64,000 nucleotides of DNA from Rhizodiscina lignyota (lineage: Eukaryota; Ascomycota; Dothideomycetes; Aulographales; Rhizodiscinaceae): positions 1,178,001 to 1,242,000 of the forward strand of contig ML978121.1 in NCBI GenBank assembly GCA_010015805.1, written 5' to 3'. This document shows, piece by piece, positions 36,148 through 53,310 of this stretch; position 1 is the first letter of the stretch, and every line of letters starts with the position of its first letter. The notes under the pieces are model-generated. The model saw nothing but the letters and a program-made list of their open reading frames with translations, was not told the origin of the DNA and did not search any database. The position numbers and the translations under genes are program-made.

Positions 36148-37404
36148 TCAGCCTTTGACATCCTTGCTGCCGACCAGCGCATCCACATACTCGTATACCT
36201 CTTCAGGCTTTTCAAAGATGTAGTAGATATCGTTCGGCACACCCTTGAAAGCCTTCTCGAACCGCTCGTCGCTGTTCTTTTCCGTCTCGTCGATTTCCGC
36301 TACTCCAGTCACCTTCCGGATGAATATCTTCCCAATCCATGACGGGTCTCGTCTGTACATCTCGGCATACGCTTCCGGGTCACTCTGCGTGCTGTCACCG
36401 AGGCAGACGAATTTTCGATTCGGGAACCACTTATGCACCTTCATCATTCTGTCGACCTTGTATGCTTGCGTGCCTTGAGTCAGACTCGCTAGGAAGCCGC
36501 CCAGGTTCATCCAGCTGGCGTCGCGCAGAATGAGAGTCCCAGCTGGGTAGTACTGCTCGCGGAACTCTCGCAAGAATGGGTACAGATTGTACGGAGATGC
36601 GGAGAGATACCAGAACGGTGGGTTTGACAGCTTCTCGTTGAGATGCTTGTAGAGCTCTGGCATGCCCGTGATTGGCGTGAATGGCTCGGCGAATGTAGTC
36701 TTCAAGATGCCAACGGGCGAAGAAGTCATGGTGAGCTTGATAGTATCGTCAATGTCGCTGATAACCGCCCAGCCGCTGGGTTCAGCGAAAGTTGTCCGGC
36801 ACGGAGTTGCTGATTGTATGCCGACTGCATTGAAAACCCTCGTGTCTCCGTCTGCACGGTCATCCCAGATGTTTACCAGTTGGCTGCTAATCCCATTCTC
36901 ATCACTGGGACCAAGCTGGGTTGAGCCGTTTGGATTGATATCAACTGAAACGGTATGCGCCGGCAGAATTGAATCCAGCAAAGGCTGCAGTCGTTCGGCG
37001 ATAGTCTTCTCTTGCGCATCTCCGGCACCTATGCCAATCTTCTCCGCCACGTCTGCAGCAATCTTGCTGACATCTTCTCCGCTGTTCTTAATGAAGTATG
37101 CTATGACGAACTCGGCTTCCCACTGCTCTGCATCTGCGTGCGGCGGACGATACGCGGTATTATCCAGCAACCAGACACTGTCTTTCGCAGGGTCGACGCG
37201 ATGATGGATAGGGTTCTTCTGGCCGAGCCAGGAAGTGAATGTATCGATGAGGTCCGCCCGTCGTCGCGATGGGAGGGCAGGCATCGTCGCTTCGAATTCG
37301 GGGAACTTATTGTGGGCGCGAAAGTCTTTCTCCTCTTGCGTCTCTTCGTGAAGCTGGCGCGCATGCGGATACGCATCTGCCAGATTCCCTGCGAGAGACG
37401 CCAT
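36148..37404 (-). CDS. APP1-type phosphatidate phosphatase (DUF2183 catalytic domain)
   Basis: Predicted Mg2+-dependent phosphatidate phosphatase related to yeast App1, which acts at cortical actin patches. One exon, 418 residues. The catalytic signature DIDDTIK (residues 217-223, within WAVISDIDDTIKLT) is the haloacid-dehalogenase-like DxDxT motif. It is followed by GMPELYKHL, PFWYLSASPYNLYPFLREF and KFVCLGDSTQSDPEAY, the conserved phosphatase core of this family. The N-terminal 200 residues hold the usual APP1 upstream region (DTFTSWLGQKNP, FNAVGIQSATP). No signal peptide or TM segment, so it is probably cytosolic and peripheral. Nothing is missing. Confidence 0.92.
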   Translation of the reverse strand: MASLAGNLADAYPHARQLHEETQEEKDFRAHNKFPEFEATMPALPSRRRADLIDTFTSWLGQKNPIHHRVDPAKDSVWLLDNTAYRPPHADAEQWEAEFVIAYFIKNSGEDVSKIAADVAEKIGIGAGDAQEKTIAERLQPLLDSILPAHTVSVDINPNGSTQLGPSDENGISSQLVNIWDDRADGDTRVFNAVGIQSATPCRTTFAEPSGWAVISDIDDTIKLTMTSSPVGILKTTFAEPFTPITGMPELYKHLNEKLSNPPFWYLSASPYNLYPFLREFREQYYPAGTLILRDASWMNLGGFLASLTQGTQAYKVDRMMKVHKWFPNRKFVCLGDSTQSDPEAYAEMYRRDPSWIGKIFIRKVTGVAEIDETEKNSDERFEKAFKGVPNDIYYIFEKPEEVYEYVDALVGSKDVKG

Positions 37405-38505
37405 CTTCGTTTTAAATCGCGGCGCTGTACTTTCTGTGGCTTGTGAGGTCTTCAGGTGGGGCTCAGAATCGAGTCAGAGAAGTCAGAAGGTGAGTGCACA
37501 GCTCTAGGCAGAGATGGAAATAGGCAGATGATGAACAGGAAGTTGAGCACGCGGTGATGGCGAAGCAGAGACAGTACTGCCGGGAGAGAGGGGGAATATG
37601 ACCTGCTCGTTAAAGTCATGTTGGAGCGGAGGGCGAATAAGAGCTGAGCGCAGCTGCGTCGTGTGCTGCAGGGAAAAAGGCGCGAAGCACGAGGACAGCC
37701 GCACATTCGAGCTGAAGACCAGGCCTGAAGAGAGACAAAAGTGCCCATGGAATGTGCATATTTACCTGAATGATCAGCCGCAGTGCTCAGCTTGCCAGAG
37801 CAGAGAACACGGTGAGAAGTGTCTTTTGACTTCAGTCAAGAAGGGGCTTTCCTCCACGTCCAGCATCTGAGGTCGCTTCTTAGCGCAAATTTAGCGCGAC
37901 GCTGTGCCGAGAGCAGCATCTTAAAGGATAGTCGTGTAATAGACAGATAAATGCTTATCATTTCTTCTTTTAATTCTCTAGAAGCTTCTCAGTACTCAGA
38001 AATAGAGGCAACGCAGGTTGCTGGTAAATATGCCACCAAAAATGTACGCTTGTGACGCTGTTTTGTGAGAGCCTTCCCCCCGCCGTGCTAAGAGCACGGC
38101 TTCATGTTTGCTTAGAGCGCCTATGTAATGCACCGAACAATAGCAAGGTCTACCCCTGCTGTCGCAGGTGCCATTCTAGGACTTCTAATAGTAGAAAGTG
38201 CAATTACTACTATCTATACTATAAACGAGTGACGAGGTATAAGATAGACGGCATCTTTATTGACAACGAATTTCACGATATAATGTTCAAAACAGGGCAA
38301 ATTCGAAAGTTTTGGCAACAAAGAGCCTGAATATGAAGATGTAGAGTCCCAAGCGAGTGAAGGGCCCTCGAGCTGTTTATATACACGAAATTGAGCTGTA
38401 TTGCAGCATTGCTGCCTCCGAAAGATGCCGCTGCGTCTGTCCTTGAGTCACTTCAGAAACTAGTGACCCGCTCGTCGACATTTATCTCCACCAACTTTTC
38501 TAATA
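37405..38505. other. Intergenic region, AT-rich toward 38.5 kb
   Basis: Promoter of the APP1-like gene on the left. From about 37900 the sequence becomes AT-rich with many short runs and no coding character, marking the left edge of the accessory island. Could contain decayed repeats, none identified. Confidence 0.4.
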
Positions 38506-41638: not shown

Positions 41639-42641
41639 GCCTTCGACAAATATGAAGATAGGAGACAATGAAAAGAGAAAATCCAAATTGAGACCTAAGG
41701 AAATATGAGAATAGGAAAATGAAATAAGGAAAACAAAGCAAGGGAATACGATTTCAGAAGATGTGATGCGAAGCTTGAATGCGAAGCACTCTCATTCTTA
41801 GGGCTCAGAAAGATTTTATACCTTTCTTCTAGTGGGCTCGTTTAGTTCTGTCATGAAATAGAATATCCGAGTCTGAGATTGATTGAATAGGTTGAAAATA
41901 GAACGGACGGAAACATGAAGTCCTCATACTCAACGTTGACAGTTCTGCGTAGAAAGATGAAGCCATAGTCGGAATAGTCGGTAAGATGACAAGAGTTGTA
42001 CATCGCTAAAAGAGTCGACTCCGATCAGAATATCGTGTGCAAGACCTCGCGCTAGCACACATGTGGCGCCTGTTGCCTGTCTGACGAGTTAGTAGTAGGT
42101 GTGAGTGGCAGTGTAGTGTCAAGGATGACAATAGTGCTGATGCGACGTGCTAGAGCAATTTCAGGGGCGGACCGTCACAGGAAGCTTTCCCGTAGTTTTA
42201 CTACACGCCAAGCCACCTATCAGGATTAGAGCTTCCAGCAATTGCCTTAACAAGCATAGTGGCAGGGTTGAGCATGAGTTTGAACTGACCTCGTTCGTCC
42301 ATCGTTCGTCCACGAGAATGTCTTGCGCTCACGTCCACACGACGGCGTAGGATATCAGCGTCCCTTATCTAGTCGCTTGGCGGGCTTGCGCTAGTTTGTA
42401 AAGTGGAAGTCGGGGCGGATGGCGGTAGTGGCGAGTCAGTCCTCCTCAGTTGATCCCAAAGATACTCCGTATCTTTGTGAGCTTCGCCAAAGATAACAAG
42501 GGTCAAAATGTATGAACTGCTCGCCGGATCGATGTCAGTCATCACTGTTGTCTACAGAATGACGGCTCTTCACGATCCCGCCGGCTGTCAGCGAGCGATT
42601 CGAGAGCACGAATGTTGAGACGTAGTTAAAAGTAAGTTGTG
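41639..42641. other. Intergenic region
   Basis: 1 kb: promoter of the secreted-protein gene on the left. A short perfect hairpin, AAAGATAC-TCC-GTATCTTT, lies at 42458-42476. No gene recognised. Confidence 0.4.
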
Positions 42642-42861
42642 TTCTTCAGCAGGAGCTAGAGCATCTCTGAAAGTTCGACTAAATATACACCGGAATGTAT
42701 TTATCTAAAACACGCAGTAAGGGCATTCTTCTGTTCTTCTGTACCATCAGGGATACTCGATCTTCCTGCCGTTTATAGTCCGAAACAAACAACTGGAGCA
42801 CGAGGATATACATCCTCGTAGTTCTATATATTGTAGCCACGACTCAACTATTTTGTCACCC
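42642..42861. repeat. Partial copy (A) of the inverted-repeat module, fused to the GIY-YIG relic
   Basis: Right end GACTCAACTATTTTGTCACC (42841-42860) matches the ends of the copies at 45920-46142 and 50072-50296. The internal motif is at 42642-42683, followed by the shared ATTTATCTAAAACAC. The left inverted repeat expected near 42585 is not visible, and about 55 bp of extra sequence separates motif and right end. It overlaps the 3' end of the GIY-YIG pseudogene frame. Confidence 0.55.
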
Positions 42862-44874
42862 ACTTGATCGGGTCGCATTTCAGGACCCACCCGAACCAAG
42901 TCGATGATGGATTGACAGAACATCCCTGCATACAGCTTTGGCGCGAACGGGATGGGATTTCCATTGGCATCGTAGTCATCTACCCATCCTGGAAATTCCA
43001 GCCATACAGTGAGCTCACGATCATCTGCAGTGGTGAAGATCGCTTTCATGGCTAACAGATGGGCATTCTCGTAGCGGGCTGACACCGGGAGGTGCGGTGC
43101 GAACCTGTGCGGGTGGGGCTCTGGACCCGGTGCGATTTCTGCCTTCAGGAGGTAGTTGACGGGTTTTCCGAGCTCCACATCCATGCCAGCTTGCTCCAGT
43201 GCCCGAAGGGTGTACTCATTTACGCGCAGGCACAAGGGACCATAGTTGATGGTGATGCTTCGTTTCCTGTAGTATAAAAGTGGTGTCGCGAAGCCCCGAA
43301 TGCCGACACCAAGGAAGGTCCATTTGTTTGTTGATAGATCTTCGTAGATGGGAATGGCTTTATTGGTGCCTATGTACCCAAGAGCAGCCCTCATTTGGAA
43401 TACTTTGTTGGTGGTGCTGGGTGGCACAGATTCACTCTTGGTGAGCGTGCGGACCAAAGAATTGGGAATGATCTTCGTCAACCTGTTCAAACGAGATTCC
43501 GTGAGGGCAACATCCGCGAATGCATTCAGCACCACCATCATCGCAAATTCGAAAAGGTAGAAATGTGAGCTTGTGAGCGAAAACACACGCTGTCGATTCG
43601 AGAAATGCGAGCGGAAACCAATCGATGGTGCGCCCGTAGTCGCGCCATATGTCGTAGAGCACCTTTTTCTTTCCCTTCTCAGGCGGAGTTGTGTTGCTTC
43701 CAACGTATGATAAATCCCACCTCCGTTTTACCGACGTAGAGGTGATGCATCGTGATGGTACCGCCTGTGAGGAGCCCCGCATAAATACCGCAGTCGGTAT
43801 TTGTTCCCTTCGCTGTGTCTTTTGAGGCATTTCGAAGCGTTTCCAGATTCCACGGCTCTCCAGTGCTCAGAGCTGCGGCGATCCCGTCAGGCATGGCCTC
43901 CACTAAGCTTTCTGCCAGGCTCTCGGGTGTGGTCTCGCGGACGATTTTGCTCGAAGAGGCCGGGAGCAGTTTGTGGTTGTCGCGCATCAAGCTGAACAGT
44001 TCGCAGAAAACCTGCTTGATGAACAGCGGAGGAGTAGGGGAAGAGTTTTGTATGTTGGACGTTTGGACATTGGATGAAGAGGATGGCTGATGGCTTGACG
44101 AAGAGTGGTGGCCGGTGAAGGATGAGGTTTGAGCAGCTGAAAAGGTGGGTGAGGGTTAGCAAAGGAAGTTCGGGCGGTTGGGTATGGAGTTTAAGTGCCT
44201 GGGATTGACGCCCGAGCGTCGGGAACTTGAGCGTCGGAGAGCTGAGCACTGGAGGCGCGAGTATCGGAGGAAGAGGAAGACATGCCACCCGAAAGAGGAA
44301 CCTGAGCCTTAGAGAGCTGAGCACTGGATGCCTGAGTATGGGACGAAGAGGAAGAAGACAGGCCACCAGAAAAAGGAACCTAAGCAATGGAGGCCTGAGT
44401 ATGGGATGAAGAGGAAGAAGACAGGCTACCAGAAAAAGGGACCTGAGCGCTGGAGACCTGAGCATTGAACGAAGAGGGAGGCTGGCCACCTGAAAATGGC
44501 TGTTGAGCGCCCGAGACCTGAGCATTAGATGAGGAGGGAGGCTGGCCACCTGGAAAAGGCACCTGAGCGCTCGAGACCTGAGTATTAGATGAGGAGGAAG
44601 ACAGGCCACCTGGAAAAGGCACCTGAGCGCTGAAGGCTTGAGCATTGAACGAAGAGGGAGGCAGGCCACCTGAAAAGGTCACCTGAGTGTTGGAGACTTG
44701 AGTATTGAACGAAGAGGAAGGCAGATCACCTGAAAAGGGCTGTTGAGCGTTGGAGGAAGAGGCTTGGGTGCTTGATGTTTGATTTGGAAGACGTGGTCGC
44801 TTCGTGACAAAGCGGTCCATAGTATTCTTCTGTGTACTTGGAGTACGGGGAGCAGCTCTCTTGAGTGCTACCAT
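42747..44874 (-). pseudogene. GIY-YIG nuclease family gene, copy A (broken)
   Basis: Paralogue of the copy at 48.6 kb, about half identical in protein by eye. Start ATG at 44874 (MVALKR...), N-terminal TMDRFVTKRPR motif, then a Ser/Gln-rich region made of 60-bp repeats. The nuclease core CGIYAGLLTGGTITMHHLYVGKTE, a later Arg, and LFEFAMMVVLNAF (catalytic Glu and Asn) survive. The gene is broken: TAG at 44382-44380 where sister repeats have CAG; a stop-containing segment around 44200-44150; a frame change near 43690 (after WKQHNSA) and another near 43605. The C-terminal third (42747-43600) is one open frame with RFAPHLPVSARYENAHLLAMKAIF. The frame runs on into the inverted-repeat module. A 5'-leader intron (donor GTAAGTC, branch TACTAAT, acceptor GCAG) lies just upstream at about 44927-44884. 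Not likely to make an active enzyme. Confidence 0.75.
44215..44775 (-). repeat. 60-bp minisatellite coding for a Ser/Gln-rich repeat
   Basis: About nine diverged copies of a 60-bp unit on the minus strand, each encoding a 20-residue pattern like SAQVPFPGGLSSSSSNTQVS. One unit carries the TAG stop noted in copy A. The sister gene at 48.6 kb lacks this array at the same place. Confidence 0.85.
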
Positions 44875-44889
44875 GGTGATAGCCTGCAT

Positions 44890-45683
44890 GTGAATTAGTA
44901 AGATTATGAAGAAAGGAGAGGTGTAGACTTACTGACGCAAGACAGACGGCACAAGTTGGAAGTCAGGGAAAAAATGAAGTCGGATCAGCTCTTTCGGAGC
45001 AGACCGCCTTTTCGAGACTTTGAGGTGTAGCACGATGAATGGGACTCCAAGGACAGTTTGGAGGAACAGTTGACAGCAACAATTGGGAGGTGATGTGAAG
45101 CGTAATCGTATAAGGCCAGATGGCAGTAAAGTAGCTCTGAGGAAGAGCAAGAGGAAAATTCGAGTGCGGAGGCAAATAACTGCGTGCGCATCGCGCCAAG
45201 AGGTTGGGAGGGAAGGCGCGTAGGGGGAGACATCGTCGGAAGGAAGGTACGAGCCAGGACCCACGTAAGAGGATCCTGTGACTTGTTTAAGCCGTCCTTA
45301 GGGATCTAAGGATGTAAGTTAAAGGTGAGACTCAATTAAGAGATGATCTAAAGGGAATGTAGCTTCAACGGTTGTAAAGAGAGGAGTCAGTCGAACTTTA
45401 CTGTACGATAACTAGACTAATTTATCTAGCTATCGTAGTACTTAGAGTCATGTTGTCATGAATCCATGAGAAACATTAGCCAAAGTGAATGCGTCAAGAA
45501 AGGTAAGAGGCAGAATCTCATTCTCTCCCGGTACATGCCCTCTAACACCGCTAAGAGATAAAGACCCTACCGAGCAGACACCTACTCGACACTAGTGACA
45601 TCCATTTCATCGGAGGAGAGTGCACGCTAGAAGTAGAATTAGTAAATGACTAGACAATGGGAGAGAGGGCATACCCAAAAGAT
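44890..45683. other. 5' flank of GIY-YIG copy A
   Basis: Contains the leader intron of copy A and a pyrimidine-rich leader (minus strand) that resembles the leader of the 48.6-kb copy. From about 45300 it is AT-rich without features. Confidence 0.4.
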
Positions 45684-46190
45684 TATGAAGAAAGGGAGAG
45701 GTGTAGACCTACGGACGCAAGACAGGCGTCACACGTTGTAAGCTAAGGGCATCCGTGACAGCATCGTTGGCAAAGGCGTTCAGTATGACTATGAAGGCAA
45801 ATTCGAACAGGTAGAAATGCGGCGTTGTAAGAACAGTCGCGCCCCCCCAGTCGTGGTGAAGACAGCTTTGATCGCTAGAAGGTAGTGCGCTGTGGGATAT
45901 TAGGCTGACACTGGCACGCGGGTGACAAAATAGTTGAGCCCGATTAATTGAACACGCGCAGCAAGGGCAAGTTTAGCTCTTCAGCACAGGCGAGAGCATC
46001 TCTAAAAGCTCGATTTAATATATATTAGATAGTATTTATCTGAAGTACACAGCTTTAGTGTGTATAATCTATATTAACGGAGGAGTATATACATCTTCAC
46101 GCTGAGATGTATTACAGCCACGACTCAACTTTTTTGTCACCCACTTGACTGCCCGGTACCTGTGGAGCGAACCGATTTGATGTTCTCGAC
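45684..46190 (-). pseudogene. GIY-YIG family fragment, copy C (scrambled mosaic)
   Basis: Pieces of the same family in altered order on the minus strand: RFAPQVPG (about 46185-46145), then an inserted 223-bp module, then VPVSA and YLLAIKAVFTT (45919-45862), then HFYLFEFAFIVILNAF (about 45820-45765), and finally a copy of the leader-intron region of copy A (45738-45684). In an intact gene the FEFA block precedes RFAP, so at least one rearrangement happened. No usable frame remains. Confidence 0.65.
45920..46142. repeat. Inverted-repeat (MITE-like) module, copy C, 223 bp
   Basis: Left end GGGTGACAAAATAGTTGAG (45920-45938) and right end CTCAACTTTTTTGTCACCC (46124-46142) are inverted repeats. 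The internal motif is at 45978-46019, 58 bp from the left end, as in the other complete copies. It splits a coding fragment related to RFAPxVPVSA of the GIY-YIG family. No open frame inside; AT-rich. Clear target-site duplication was not found. Confidence 0.75.
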
Positions 46191-47519: not shown

Positions 47520-47930
47520 CTACCGCCTTCTTCTTGACTACTTCTTCCTCACGTCAAATACCCGGATCAACTCCTCCTTCGCCCCAGGCGCCTTCTTACT
47601 CAACTACTCCTTCCACAGTGCCTGGCACCTTCTTGGATCAACTCCTTCGCTTCAGGCGCCTTCTTCCTTAACTACTTCTTCCTCCCGTCAATCACTCGGA
47701 TTAACTCCTTCGCTTCGGGCGCCTTCTCCCTTGACTACTTCCTCTACTGTGCCTGGCGACTTCTTGGATTATCTCTTCTTCTCTTCAGGCACCTTTTCGA
47801 TCGACTACTTCCTCTGCTGTGCCTGGCGACTTCTTGGATTAACTCCTCCTTCGCTTCAGGCGCCTTGCGGCTTGACTACTTCTTCCATTCCGCCTGGCGA
47901 CTCTTTGGATTGACATCTTCTTCCTTACTT
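47520..47930 (+). repeat. Degenerate tandem repeat of about 60-90 bp
   Basis: Recurring blocks such as GTGCCTGGCGACTTCTTGGA and TTCGCTTCAGGCGCCTTC alternate with TTGACTACTTC, five or more times with drift. It lies upstream of GIY-YIG copy B. Coding role doubtful. Confidence 0.6.
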
Positions 47931-48592
47931 CTGGCGGCTCAAGTCACGCGCAGAATAACAAGAATAACGCCTCCAACTCCTTAGATAGTTTCCGACTTTC
48001 CAATTCCTCACGTAGTAATTCGCCTCCTAAATAGTACTCAACTCCTGCTTACAATTCAACAGGTTTTCCGTCCGTCCATCGCTCGAGGCATCCGAGAGCT
48101 CATGGCCTCGCAAGCCACTACAATCCATTCCAAGGACAACCAACCCCAACGGCAACCCATCGCAATGCTGCAAGAATCTAGTGCAGTGCAATCCATCTAC
48201 TTGCGTCTTGTATTTAGCTCCAATGTCGTCCACTATGCATTGCGGTTTTTTCAACTTCAACGTGGTGGTGCCGCCTCGTGCCTCCCTCGCATCGCGCCTT
48301 CCCTTCCAACTCTCTCGAGCCCCTAGCGCGTTTCGTCTCGCGCACATCAAATCTTTTGTGGGAAGATGGCAATGTACTTATCCTCTTTGTCTGTTTCTTC
48401 GCCTCCGGTGCTCTCTGTCTCTCGGCGATCTCTTCTTCTCAGCTCCAGGGCAGCTCCAGGACGTTAATATTGTCGGCACTCCTCCTTGTACACTCTCCAT
48501 CCAGTTCAGCTGCTTGCGCGCTCTGGATCGTATTTGTAAGTCATCTGCCCTCTCGTCACCTTAATGGTCTAGCTAACTCGACTAGCTGCAAG

Positions 48593-50071
48593 ATGGTGGC
48601 CATGAAGAGGAAGAATGGTCAGAGTACCTTGGATTCTTTCGTTGTCAAGCGTCCACGGGCTACTACCGACAATGTCGATGTACTTCTTAATCAAGCTTCC
48701 CTCCACGCGGACTTCCACGGCCTTGATGTCGCCAATAATGAACTCCTCTCTGCATTCAGCACTGTCGTCACGCCCGCCGCTCAGAAGTTCATGACCCCTT
48801 CTATCGCGACTCCTGCCTTTTCGATTCATAATACATTCCTCTTGCTATTCAAGGCTCTTCGGAATGAGAGAAAGAGTCTGCCCGGTCCAATGGCAGACCT
48901 TGCACAGCGCGAGCTTCCTGAGCAGCTGGCAGACTGCTTAATTGCAGCTATGCCGGGTGGTCTGATTGAGGTGATGAGTGCTGGTCGCCCGTGGATCCTG
49001 GAAGAGCTGAGAGACTCCTGCTACCGCTCCAGGAAATGCAACAAAACGGATTGCGGCATATACGCAGGCTTGCTCAAGAGTGCCGTGCGTCATCTTTATG
49101 TCGGAAAGACGGAGGTAACGTTCATGGCCAGGACCAACCAGCACATCGCGAGCAAGAATGCCGGCCACGAGAAGTTCTTCTATAATGTCTGGCGAGAGAG
49201 CGGTGCCAGCGTGGATTGGTTCTGGCTTGCCCATTTGAACAGGCAGAGAGTACTCTCGCTCACGACTACGCACTTCTTTTACTTCGAGTTCGCTCTCATG
49301 GCAACGCTCAATGCCTTTACCGATTCGGCCTTGACCACTGCGCGGCTCGAAAAGTGGTGTCGCCTCGTACCCGACCCGCTCTTAAGGATGCTCTCTGGCG
49401 GCAAGATGGTTCCCGACTCAGCCTTGGGCAAGATTCAGCAGATGCGTGAGGCACTCAAGTACAGAGGGACCAATGTCAGCATCCCCTTGTGTGAGGACCG
49501 AAGCGAATTCAATCTTGCCTATGGAGCTACCGGAGTATGGCAAAGCGCCACGTTGACCCAGACCAAGAGAGGCAAGAAGACTACCAGAGTCTTTCAGCTT
49601 TGCGTCGGCGCAATCCGTGTGAATCTCTACGAGAATGAGATCGCCGCGCTAGAGAATACTGGTATCGTTATACCACTGAAGAAGTCGGTCATGTACCTGC
49701 TTCAAGTCGAGATTGCTCAGGGTCCCGTGCCTCATCCCCAGCGGTTTGCCCCTGAAGTCCCTATTTCCACCAGGCACGAAGACGCACACTTGCTTGGCAT
49801 CAAGGCAATCTTTCAGACCGTCGACAACCGCGATGCAGGAATCTAGTTACGAATGCCGCAGTTATAGAATGTTTACGACGAGGACAGCAACGCCATCCCA
49901 TTTGCCCCTACTATTTACCGGGCAATGCTCTGCATGTCGGTCATTGACGTAGTGCGCGCTGGTCCTGGCAATCGCTCAATCGTGCTTCCTTCAAACCGAG
50001 GACATGTCAAATGCACTAGCGGCGAAGCGACAAAGCACATTCAGTTCAGAACTGAGAATAACTCCGTAAGT
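48593..50071 (+). pseudogene. GIY-YIG nuclease family gene, copy B (two nonsense codons, otherwise open)
   Basis: The frame from ATG 48593 runs 417 codons to TAG 49844-49846; a second TAG is at 49865-49867; then the same frame stays open to 50077, inside the next repeat. N-terminus: QSTLDSFVVKRPR, with a PCNA-box-like Q-x2-L-x2-F and a basic cluster. Catalytic set of a GIY-YIG nuclease: G155-I-Y157, HLY169VGK, Arg180, Glu232 and Asn240 (FEFALMATLNAF). The C-terminal domain has RFAPEVPISTRHEDAHLLGIKAIF and, past the stops, AIPFAP. Position by position against copy A the segment between has equal length, with Trp in A facing the first TAG, so both stops look like point mutations (TGG or CAG to TAG). 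A truncated product with an intact nuclease core could still be made. Not a known named family to me. Confidence 0.75.
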
Positions 50072-50296
50072 GGGTGACAAAATAGTTGAGTCGTGGCTGT
50101 AATATATCTCAGCATGAGATGTATATACTCCTCCGTTAATATAGATTATACACACTAAAGCGGTGTGATTTAGATAAATGAACTCTAGTATATAACTTAT
50201 CGACCTTCCAGAGATGCTCTTGCTAGCATTGAAGAGGAAACCTCAATTCTACTAAACATGTTCAACCTTCACAAGAGTCAACTATTTTATCACCCT
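50072..50296. repeat. Inverted-repeat (MITE-like) module, copy B, 225 bp
   Basis: Left end GGGTGACAAAATAGTTGAG (50072-50090); right end GTCAACTATTTTATCACCC (50278-50296) is its inverted repeat with few mismatches. The internal motif lies on the minus strand at about 50236-50194, 60 bp from that end. Same layout as copy C, in opposite orientation. It abuts the end of the GIY-YIG copy B frame. Confidence 0.75.
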
Positions 50297-51338
50297 CGTG
50301 CCGATTTCTCCGGAACTAATCGAATGAATGTGCTGGCTCCTCAGCACGCTGACAAGCACAGCCCAGGCAAGATATGTTAGTGCCAGAAGGCTTGTAACTT
50401 CAATGTCTAGACCCTGCATAGAGAGCTCTAGACTTTTAATAAAAGAAAGTTATAGACGATAACTATCTTTATTGCTTCTAAGAAGCTTCTATCCCCCTTG
50501 CGGCTAGGCATTCCCTGCCTTGGTAAAGAAGTACCCGTATCACAGGGGCCCTAGCACAGTGATTTATTCCATTTTCGGTGAATCATCCCTGGAGCTGGGT
50601 ACCTTAGCCCCCAGGAGTTTAGGTACTAAAACCGGGAATGCCAGGTCTAGCCGCAAGGGATATACTACGTTAATAAGTTTATATTCGAGGCTATTAGAGA
50701 GTAGCTTACCATGTCTACCTTAGAAATTATTTCTTGATACTACGAAAAAGAGATGTCGTCTTACTATTTGTGTGGAGTTAATAATAGAATATATTACTTA
50801 TAAAGAGAGTTGATTTCTAGTAAAGGACTAATTTATAAAGCTATTTAATTCTAATTACGTTCGTCAAAAAAATATTTAGCGGACCAATAGCGAATTTATA
50901 GAAACTTAAGTAGCTTTAAATAATAAGTCCATATGTTGCTAGAGATGCCCCGGATGTTCAACTCACACGAAGACGGCAAGGCACTAGCGGCACTTCCGTT
51001 CAATCGCATGCTCTATCAGGCAATAGGGTGCATGTCTATCATCGATGTCGGACGGGCCAAGCTAGGGAAACACGTATGTAAATTAACCGTTTTATGTAAT
51101 CTGACGTCGACAACCGCACATGGTCTTCGGTAGAGGCCGAGATTGACGCTTCAGGAACCCTATGTGTCATCTCCACAAACAATTTTCATATAGAAACCGA
51201 AATCCAACCACTTGATCAAAACATATTCTCCAGCTTTGCATTAGTTACATATAATATGGCTGCGACATCTCAAAAGCAAAGAGTCGGCTTCCGCTAAAGA
51301 CCATTTCACGAGCGCATCACAATTACAACTCCGACAGC
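50297..51338. other. AT-rich region with decayed repeats
   Basis: About 1 kb between the module and the F-box gene; includes the hairpin element at 50495-50659 and very AT-rich sequence (50700-50930) suggesting RIP. No intact gene. Confidence 0.4.
50495..50659. repeat. 165-bp element with 13-bp perfect inverted ends
   Basis: CCCTTGCGGCTAG at 50495-50507 is the exact inverse of CTAGCCGCAAGGG at 50647-50659; GCATTCCC recurs inverted just inside with a 5-bp offset. Could be a small MITE or hairpin-forming relic. Confidence 0.55.
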
Positions 51339-53310
51339 ATGCTCGCAGATCTCCCCTTCGAGCTCCTATCTCAGATAGCTCTCCATCTTCCAACCGCCCA
51401 ATCATTCTACTACCTATCTCTAACGTGCCGACGGCTGTGCCAATTCGTAGCGGAAGATGGGTGGCGAACATTCGCACAACACAGATTTCCTTCAATCCCC
51501 ACGGCACCTCACTGGAAAGAGGCATCTCATGCTCTGTCAACGCTGTCACGAAACTGGGATCGAAGAGCTCTGGCTGCTCGATACATCCATCCCGACGGCT
51601 TGATTCTCCGCCTACCAGAGGGACAAAGAGCGCAAAAATGGCAGAAACCGCAAGGCCAGAGCATGGGATTTCAGCCCGTCATCGATGCGTACGAAGAATG
51701 GGCAAGCGACCGTTGGGCATCCAGAAGAGAGGTCCTGACATTCAGTGCAGGAGCCGAATTACTGTTCCGAATTAAAGACCGCGGCTTAGAAGCAGCTCCG
51801 GGATTCACTCCACACAACGCAGATCATCGACATCCAGATTCTGAACGATATCCGGCAAGAGTTCACTGGGTAGTCTACAAACCGCCCGAAGCAAGACAGG
51901 GTTTAGATGATGTCACATGCTTGAGACTCCTCAGGTCCCTGGACTCTGTCCGCCTGAATACAGCAGCAGAAAGCTACGAGAAGCTGATCTTCGGAACGGC
52001 AAAAGGCGATTTGAAACTTGTGAGCATATCCTTGCTCGAGGATGCTGGAAACGGGAGCGATGTCACCAATGCGACTTTTGCTACGAATCAAAGGCCGGTA
52101 CGGTCCATGGACTTGATTCCAGATGGCTCACGTCTAGCTACTTGCCTGTCTGATTCTACCTTGGCCCTTTATCCCGTGCCAACGGAAAATGAGAATCAGA
52201 GAATCACACCAAGCAGTGAAGTAGATGTTCTTGGCGGAAGAACGGCTGGACCGCCGAAGAGACTATGGTCTACACGGTGGCTATCATCAGATCGACTCGC
52301 TGTCGGACTTGGTCCATGTGATAAGCCGCTCCATGTTTACCAGGTTACTGAATCAGGCCTCGATGCCGAGCCAATTCGAAAATTTGGAATCGATGGCACT
52401 GAGTGGGGATGTGATGATCGAATAGATCTTCGTCCGGAAGCCGCAAAGCGGATATCGTCTGTATATCCAATTGTCACGCTGCCGGCAACGTCAGAAGCAG
52501 GGCATGCTGCAGGCAATGTTTTTTTGACAGGCTGCTATGATGGGATCATAAGGTACATGTGCTCCCCCAAGCTCGCTAGTCACTGCTAACGGTAAACATA
52601 GATTGCACGATTTGCGATCTCCACATGCCCATGTGAGTAGCTACTGGGATCCAATCGACGATTCTGCCATCTACTCTCTGCAAGCCTTTGGACGAGAGAG
52701 ACTCGCAGCGGGAAGCGCGCAGAGCTGTGCCGTCAAGTTCTTTGACCTCCGCGTTTCCGGTGGTCGAGCGTATCACTACTTGGATATTCGGCAAGCCAAA
52801 TCAAAATCAAGTTCCACACTTCCTCGAAATGATTCCTTTAATCGACACGGGCCAGACCGCCGTGGTTGGAACCTGTTCCTTGCTCCCCGACCAGGAAATG
52901 TAGAGAATAGCAGAGGCTCTCGCAGGCATCCCTATAATGCGGGTCGTCGAGAAGCACAGAGGGCCGCAGAGTCACCAATATACTCACTCTGCAGTCCTGC
53001 GCCTTATTCGCCGTCTCTGTTTGCTGGTATCGAGAACAATATTGTACAGATCGACTTCACCAGCACGACAGACAAGCATCCAGATCCGCTATTGTCGAGC
53101 GAGCTGTCCGAACACCGTAAATCAGGTCATGTCGATCAACCGACATGGGACTCGGGCGGAAGGGTTGTGAATCTGGCAATGTACGAGCACACCTTGACAG
53201 GCGGGATAGATCTAAAGGTCCAAGTAAGTCCATCGGAGGCGGCAAATCGTCGTGGAATGCTGGAGGGCTACGATGACCGATGGAGAGAAAGCCCGAAATG
53301 GCGAAGGTAG
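51339..53310 (+). CDS. F-box protein with beta-propeller-like region
   Basis: Predicted substrate adaptor of an SCF ubiquitin ligase. Exons 51339-52552 and 52602-53310 encode 640 residues; the 49-bp intron has branch GCTAAC. The F-box starts at residue 3: LADLPFELLSQIALHLPTAQSFYYLSLTCRRL. The remainder carries weak WD40-like blades (YEKLIFGTAKGDLKLVSI, VRSMDLIPDGSRLATCLSDSTLALY, GNVFLTGCYDGIIRLHDLR, LAAGSAQSCAVKFFDLR), so a propeller for target binding is inferred rather than certain. The first ATG of the frame is used. Target unknown; the protein differs clearly from the F-box/WD40 protein at 2.1-5.1 kb. Confidence 0.85.

Follow-up and report, generated by a model that had tools for sequence, protein, structure and literature searches.

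A decayed, low-copy nuclear gene family likely to encode a GIY-YIG type endonuclease in the fungus Rhizodiscina lignyota

Results

Five damaged copies of a gene family, four of them clustered

The window analysed is a stretch of 64,000 nucleotides (positions 1178001-1242000 of contig C1) from the 33.4-Mb genome of Rhizodiscina lignyota (29 contigs). Protein searches of this genome retrieved five copies of a gene family, designated A to E; since copy counts from such searches are lower bounds, the family comprises at least five copies. Four of the five (A, B, C and E) lie in a single 8.5-kb cluster, while D, a fragment, stands alone at a distance of 1.2 Mb, and damage is apparent in every one of them (A, B and the fragments C, D and E). 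The DNA of copy B is single-copy, matching itself alone across the 33.4 Mb. The GIY-YIG piece of copy A gave two further weak matches in the genome (C7:770999, E 0.22; C1:1731855, E 0.56). The features are as follows (window coordinates unless a contig is named).

42615..42866, minus strand: MITE copy, beginning at the end of the A-B alignment
42873..44874, minus strand: copy A, a broken gene with frame breaks and stops; N-terminal start and motif, GIY-YIG and C-terminal pieces
44884..44932, minus strand: putative leader intron of copy A (GTAAGT ... CAG)
45679..46174, minus strand: fragment C, rearranged A-like pieces, namely leader (89% DNA identity), helix with Glu and Asn, and PVSA piece
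45915..46147, minus strand: MITE copy, beside or inside fragment C
48536..48585, plus strand: putative leader intron of copy B (GTAAGT, GCTAAC, TAG), directly before the ATG
48593..49846, plus strand: copy B, 417 open codons up to the first TAG
49847..49975, plus strand: remainder of copy B, with homology to A past the first in-frame TAG and a second TAG inside
50068..50300, plus strand: MITE copy, directly after copy B
50933..51067, plus strand: fragment E, C-terminal part of another copy
C1:2453685-2454071: fragment D, GIY-YIG part kept, three stops

Tandem repeats of 71 bp (5.2 copies, 47564-47923) separate C from B. The cluster is flanked by open frames at 36148-37473 and 51255-52589 that resemble ordinary host genes, possibly phosphatase-like and F-box. 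A possible P450 adjoining fragment D found no confirmation in Pfam or PDB and was dropped. Intron signals of the fungal type are present in the genome, in which 151 HET-domain matches were counted, against none in 14 control genomes; both features are as expected of a filamentous fungus.

The first-pass annotation of this DNA had delimited a gene at 48593..50071. That interval does contain copy B and its homology to A up to about 49975, but its last few bases are MITE sequence, as the MITE starts at about 50068. Copy B consists of an N-terminal motif (approximately residues 10-22), a GIY-YIG type domain (approximately residues 150-245) and a C-terminal domain. Reading back from the sequence located Y157, Y169, R180, H184, E232 and N240. 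The two boxes are GIY155-157 and YVG169-171 in B, GIY and YVG in A, and GVY and YVG in D; the central Arg and the C-terminal Glu (R180 and E232 in B) are the same in the pieces of A and in D, where the counterpart of H184 is also present, and the Asn corresponding to N240 recurs in A, C and D. Thus, of the earlier statement that Y157, Y169, R180, E232 and N240 stand in the order and spacing of a GIY-YIG nuclease, the order holds, being read back and recurring in A and D, and the spacing needs a correction: Glu and Asn are 8 residues apart in copy B, as against 15 in I-TevI.

Both A and B start with MVA-x-KR and have an intron-like GTAAGT...AG sequence directly before the ATG. All three parts of the protein were said to be conserved in copy A; they are indeed all present, but spread over broken frames, the GIY-YIG region itself being split by frame breaks. 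The linker of A holds 60-bp tandem repeats (7.2 copies, 44317-44755), and its long C-terminal frame ends in MITE sequence, which begins near residue 245 of the tested piece. Over 365 aligned codons, B and A differ by 0.44, 0.32 and 0.69 at the first, second and third codon positions, with an amino-acid identity of 0.458, whereas 500 reshufflings averaged 0.242 and did not exceed 0.293; the synonymous rate is saturated and could not be calculated. The differences by codon position, together with an identity above that of the reshufflings, therefore indicate that protein constraint acted long after the split, and that A and B diverged under it. Amino-acid identity between B and D is 57%.

Assignment to the GIY-YIG superfamily

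Searching the six frames of the window for G[IVLY][YF]-x(8-14)-Y[IVL]G-x(6-10)-R-x3-H gave two occurrences, one in A and one in B; 40 Markov windows of equal length gave none. With copy B, Pfam returned GIY-YIG (PF01541) as the sole family at E up to 10 (17.5 bits, E 0.0051; 20.2 bits and E 7.4e-4 for the domain alone), and the same family ranked first for D, with 18.5 bits and E 0.0026. All these scores fall below the curated cut-off of 22.6 bits, a practical threshold rather than a defining residue. The copy A piece gave no Pfam match at E up to 10, and a PF01541 profile search of the genome at E up to 0.001 returned two places, neither of them A, B or D. There was no match in NCBIfam, and PHROGs offered none below E 0.35. 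A single-sequence search of the PDB found nothing, and a profile of B, D and A retrieved a ribosomal protein alone (E 1.4) and no GIY-YIG chain; once the related sequences G1 and G2 described below were included, the five-row profile gave, up to E 10, a weak match to just one PDB chain, I-TevI (1mk0, E 0.063). AlphaFold2 models of B to the first stop and of the domain alone were unusable (pLDDT 35.2 and 38.9), the single-sequence model being all helix.

Overall, the assignment of the family to the GIY-YIG superfamily is likely. This upholds the initial description of a gene family of GIY-YIG type whose copies A and B retain a short N-terminal motif. It also upholds the absence of an assignment for the C-terminal domain, for which no family came near threshold in Pfam, NCBIfam or PHROGs. 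A prokaryotic or viral origin was considered and set aside, no relative having been found in viral contigs, genome contigs (close relatives only), phages or plasmids.

The N-terminal motif

Copies A and B both retain the motif T[LM]D-x-FV-x-KRPR beside a poorly conserved linker, a contrast which suggests that the motif has a function. It had been described as close to a PIP box, with docking on PCNA as the proposed consequence. A short motif is kept in both copies, but Q-x2-L-x2-F exists in B alone: copy A has no Gln at the PIP position (one sits a residue off), and F-V replaces the aromatic pair in both, so that neither A nor B contains the conserved pattern Q-x2-[ILM]-x2-[FY]-[FY]. Shuffling B produces the loose pattern in 18% of cases, or in 1.2% if it must fall within the first 30 residues. 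PCNA docking is thus not supported, and KRPR as a putative nuclear import signal is a reading at least as good.

A distant sister subfamily

One of the two PF01541 places in the genome, G1 (C3:2836580; 22.9 bits against the cut-off of 22.6), led to a second subfamily, which also includes G2 (C3:2421216; 35% identical, with one TAG within the match that may be intronic) and the fragment G3 (C5:565206). This subfamily is apparently less damaged than A-E. In a profile-profile comparison (hhalign), B/A/D and G1/G2/G3 aligned from before GIY through R-x3-H with a score of 34.8 (P 9.6e-4), a value reached by none of 150 column shuffles. The C-terminal parts of the B-type and G profiles, compared alone, scored 23.1 (10.6 when reversed), and 2 of 200 shuffles scored as high, one of these being an unexplained shuffle at 134. 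First comparisons of B, or of a piece of copy A (A4), with G1 were not significant; with HMMER, G1-G3 were missed by the B/A C-terminal profile at E up to 5, and the reverse search with the G profile reached the C-terminal part of copy A only at E 2.7.

G1 and G2 resemble B in the stretch before GIY, the GIY-YIG domain and probably the same C-terminal domain, all in the same order. They differ from it by very low identity, by the lack of a noticeable TLDxFV motif and by a six-cysteine cluster near the C-terminus, C-x2-C...PECK...C...GRPCSWT, which is common to both (L065, minus strand, and L002, approximately 2785-2960; in G1 across a presumed intron). Its spacing is somewhat like that of a fungal zinc cluster; the G2 piece that includes it received no Pfam name. 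In G2, Gln replaces the central Arg, and the place of N240 is taken by Gln in G1 and Glu in G2, with Asp and Asn three residues further (by eye). We conclude that G1, G2 and G3 form a distant sister subfamily of A-E, newly found here, and that they are a more promising object than the A-E locus.

The MITE family at and near the loci

The repeated sequence at the locus is a dispersed MITE of about 235 bp. Its terminus occurs at 150 places with up to 2 mismatches (control 0) and at 85 places with 0-1 mismatch, which collapse to at least 71 elements; when 40 of the 108 candidates were scored with a profile, 45 matches resulted. Within the window, the only repeats of at least 60 nt are this MITE and tandem arrays. 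MITEs lie in or beside three of the copies (in the 3' part of A, at C and after B), and none was found in 9.5 kb around fragment D. Their insertion points differ along the protein, at about residue 390 of B for C (tentative), 462 for A and 492 for B; the position inside fragment C is tentative because the far-side piece is a 7-residue match with E 1.4. The 3' sequence shared by A and B was considered as the end of an element and rejected, the same terminus being dispersed genome-wide. Of 23 MITE loci, 19 are bordered by direct repeats of 5-11 bp (7-9 bp in 10 of them; counted without a chance control), which suggests that the MITE is an ordinary DNA transposon.

Among 28 other exact-terminus loci, no clear GIY-YIG flank was seen beyond the MITE-coded residues of A, two matches apart: L025 gave one weak match (E 0.042, 36 residues), and at L026 the match extends from the MITE part into the flank. 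In a proximity test (within 5 kb of the 85 terminus places with 0-1 mismatch), a strong terminus was near one of the five GIY-YIG loci versus 6 of 150 HET-gene places, and the MITE as partner of the nuclease was discarded as the main reading. A weaker profile at 25 bits or more matched the A-E cluster, G1, G2 and G3 but not D, hence four of five GIY-YIG loci. The background of approximately 77 kb, a small and non-random sample made up of the rest of the window, L001, L048, L049 and L060-L063, gave no match at this level and two at 22-23 bits.

In G1, the presumed intron (L002:1125-1500; C3:2836204-2836579) splits GIY from YVG and has MITE-like sequence inside (33 bits); judging from its sequence, it looks as if an inserted element had turned into an intron. 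By eye, it is flanked by a near-repeat, AACGACAAG / AACGATAAA. MITE-like stretches also stand in a row 3' of G2 (L069:2113-4304; C3:2418612-2420803), the best scoring 147 bits and the others 6-28. That a two-branch nuclear GIY-YIG lineage, undescribed as such, would work with or on the 235-bp MITE, cutting its target sites or mobilising it in trans, is a speculation to which we give hardly any credence.

Discussion

Origin and fate of the family

With a probability of about 0.7, we consider copy B to be a decayed member of an old, low-copy nuclear fungal gene family, likely with introns, that codes for a GIY-YIG type endonuclease. Its decay would be rather recent, since 417 codons are still open. 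Going by its KRPR cluster, the intact protein would have been nuclear and may have cleaved DNA through the mechanism usual for GIY-YIG enzymes (Tyr, Arg and one metal held by Glu), the C-terminal domain possibly picking the DNA substrate or a partner. The copies presumably arose through local duplication and were then lost by drift, which would fit a dispensable repair, defence or selfish nuclease. RIP was considered as the cause of decay and rejected, RIP indices being ordinary. The genes at the A-E locus are relics. A lineage with an unassigned C-terminal domain and a six-cysteine sister branch would bring a further architecture into the superfamily, and would offer a candidate for a role in repair, in defence or in selfish behaviour.

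The first-pass annotation had suggested a selfish or mobile nuclease, and the cluster could accordingly be a graveyard of insertions of a nuclease spreading by homing or transposition. GIY-YIG enzymes are common in selfish elements, according to a 2006 survey (PMC1564403); the copies found are all broken, fragment D lies apart by 1.2 Mb, and a low copy number is compatible with an extinct element. However, B is single-copy DNA, four of the five copies found are clustered, and the several near-identical dispersed copies of an autonomous mobile element were not found. The difference between A and B at 69% of third positions argues against recent spread. In the six reading frames of 42.0-51.3 kb, Pfam matched no family at E up to 1, mobile-element domains (transposase or reverse transcriptase) included, although with low sensitivity, as the scan also missed the GIY-YIG domain there. 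Moreover, the 3' repeats belong to the dispersed MITE, the window holds no long repeats beyond it and the tandem arrays, and the putative leader introns beside the ATG resemble those of an ordinary gene. We therefore regard spread as a selfish element as unlikely.

An ordinary host nuclease of repair or recombination, docked on PCNA through its N-terminal motif, would account for the conservation of T[LM]D-x-FV-x-KRPR next to a poorly conserved linker and for Q-x2-L-x2-F in B; against this stand the misplaced Gln of A, the second aromatic missing in both copies, the frequency of the loose pattern in shuffles of B and the breakage of every copy found, which implies that the gene is not essential here. 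We hold this explanation to be quite improbable. Still less probable is an unrelated protein, not a nuclease, with a chance GIY/YVG pattern: Pfam scores under the cut-off and the failed models would be expected of it, but the pattern is absent from 40 Markov windows, the residues are kept in A and D, and Pfam, the link to G1 and the I-TevI match agree. The reading as an old nuclear family that codes for a GIY-YIG type endonuclease is thus the one we retain.

Comparison with known GIY-YIG systems

Among the literature matches listed, GIY-YIG work concerns largely mitochondrial introns, with some phages and Penelope elements, and, judged by titles and the openings of abstracts, none of them describes a nuclear fungal family of this kind, which may nevertheless be annotated elsewhere already. 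The 2006 survey names as groups with eukaryotic members, among others, Slx1, COG3680 (ankyrin, LEM), Penelope, MutS fusions and a few unorthodox homing types (PMC1564403), and reports that the C-terminal Asn is absent or replaced by Asp in some families. By its sequence, copy B falls within the motif definition of the superfamily; none of the accessory domains of these groups was matched in B. Penelope GIY-YIG is treated in PMC4522978, and mitochondrial GIY-YIG genes in PMC5844311 and PMC4226871.

Penelope-like elements share with B a GIY-YIG endonuclease in eukaryotic nuclear DNA; B differs in that no reverse transcriptase was detected in 42.0-51.3 kb (by the low-sensitivity scan) and that its DNA is single-copy. 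The T5orf172 (PF10544) proteins have a GIY-YIG-like fold, and four PF10544 matches lie in long open frames of the genome, but B has none at E up to 10. SLX1, of which the gene at C10:422275 (L001) is presumably the genome's own representative, is, like B, a eukaryotic nuclear GIY-YIG nuclease. According to the survey, Slx1 has a C-terminal RING-type finger and lacks the C-terminal Asn (PMC1564403), whereas B has no RING-type Pfam match and keeps this Asn. The NUMOD homing endonucleases differ from B, in which Pfam finds no NUMOD at E up to 10. I-TevI, the sole PDB match of the five-row profile, shares with B the order GIY ... YVG ... R-x3-H ... E ... N; unlike it, B is nuclear, likely has leader introns, places Glu and Asn closer together and carries an unassigned C-terminal domain.
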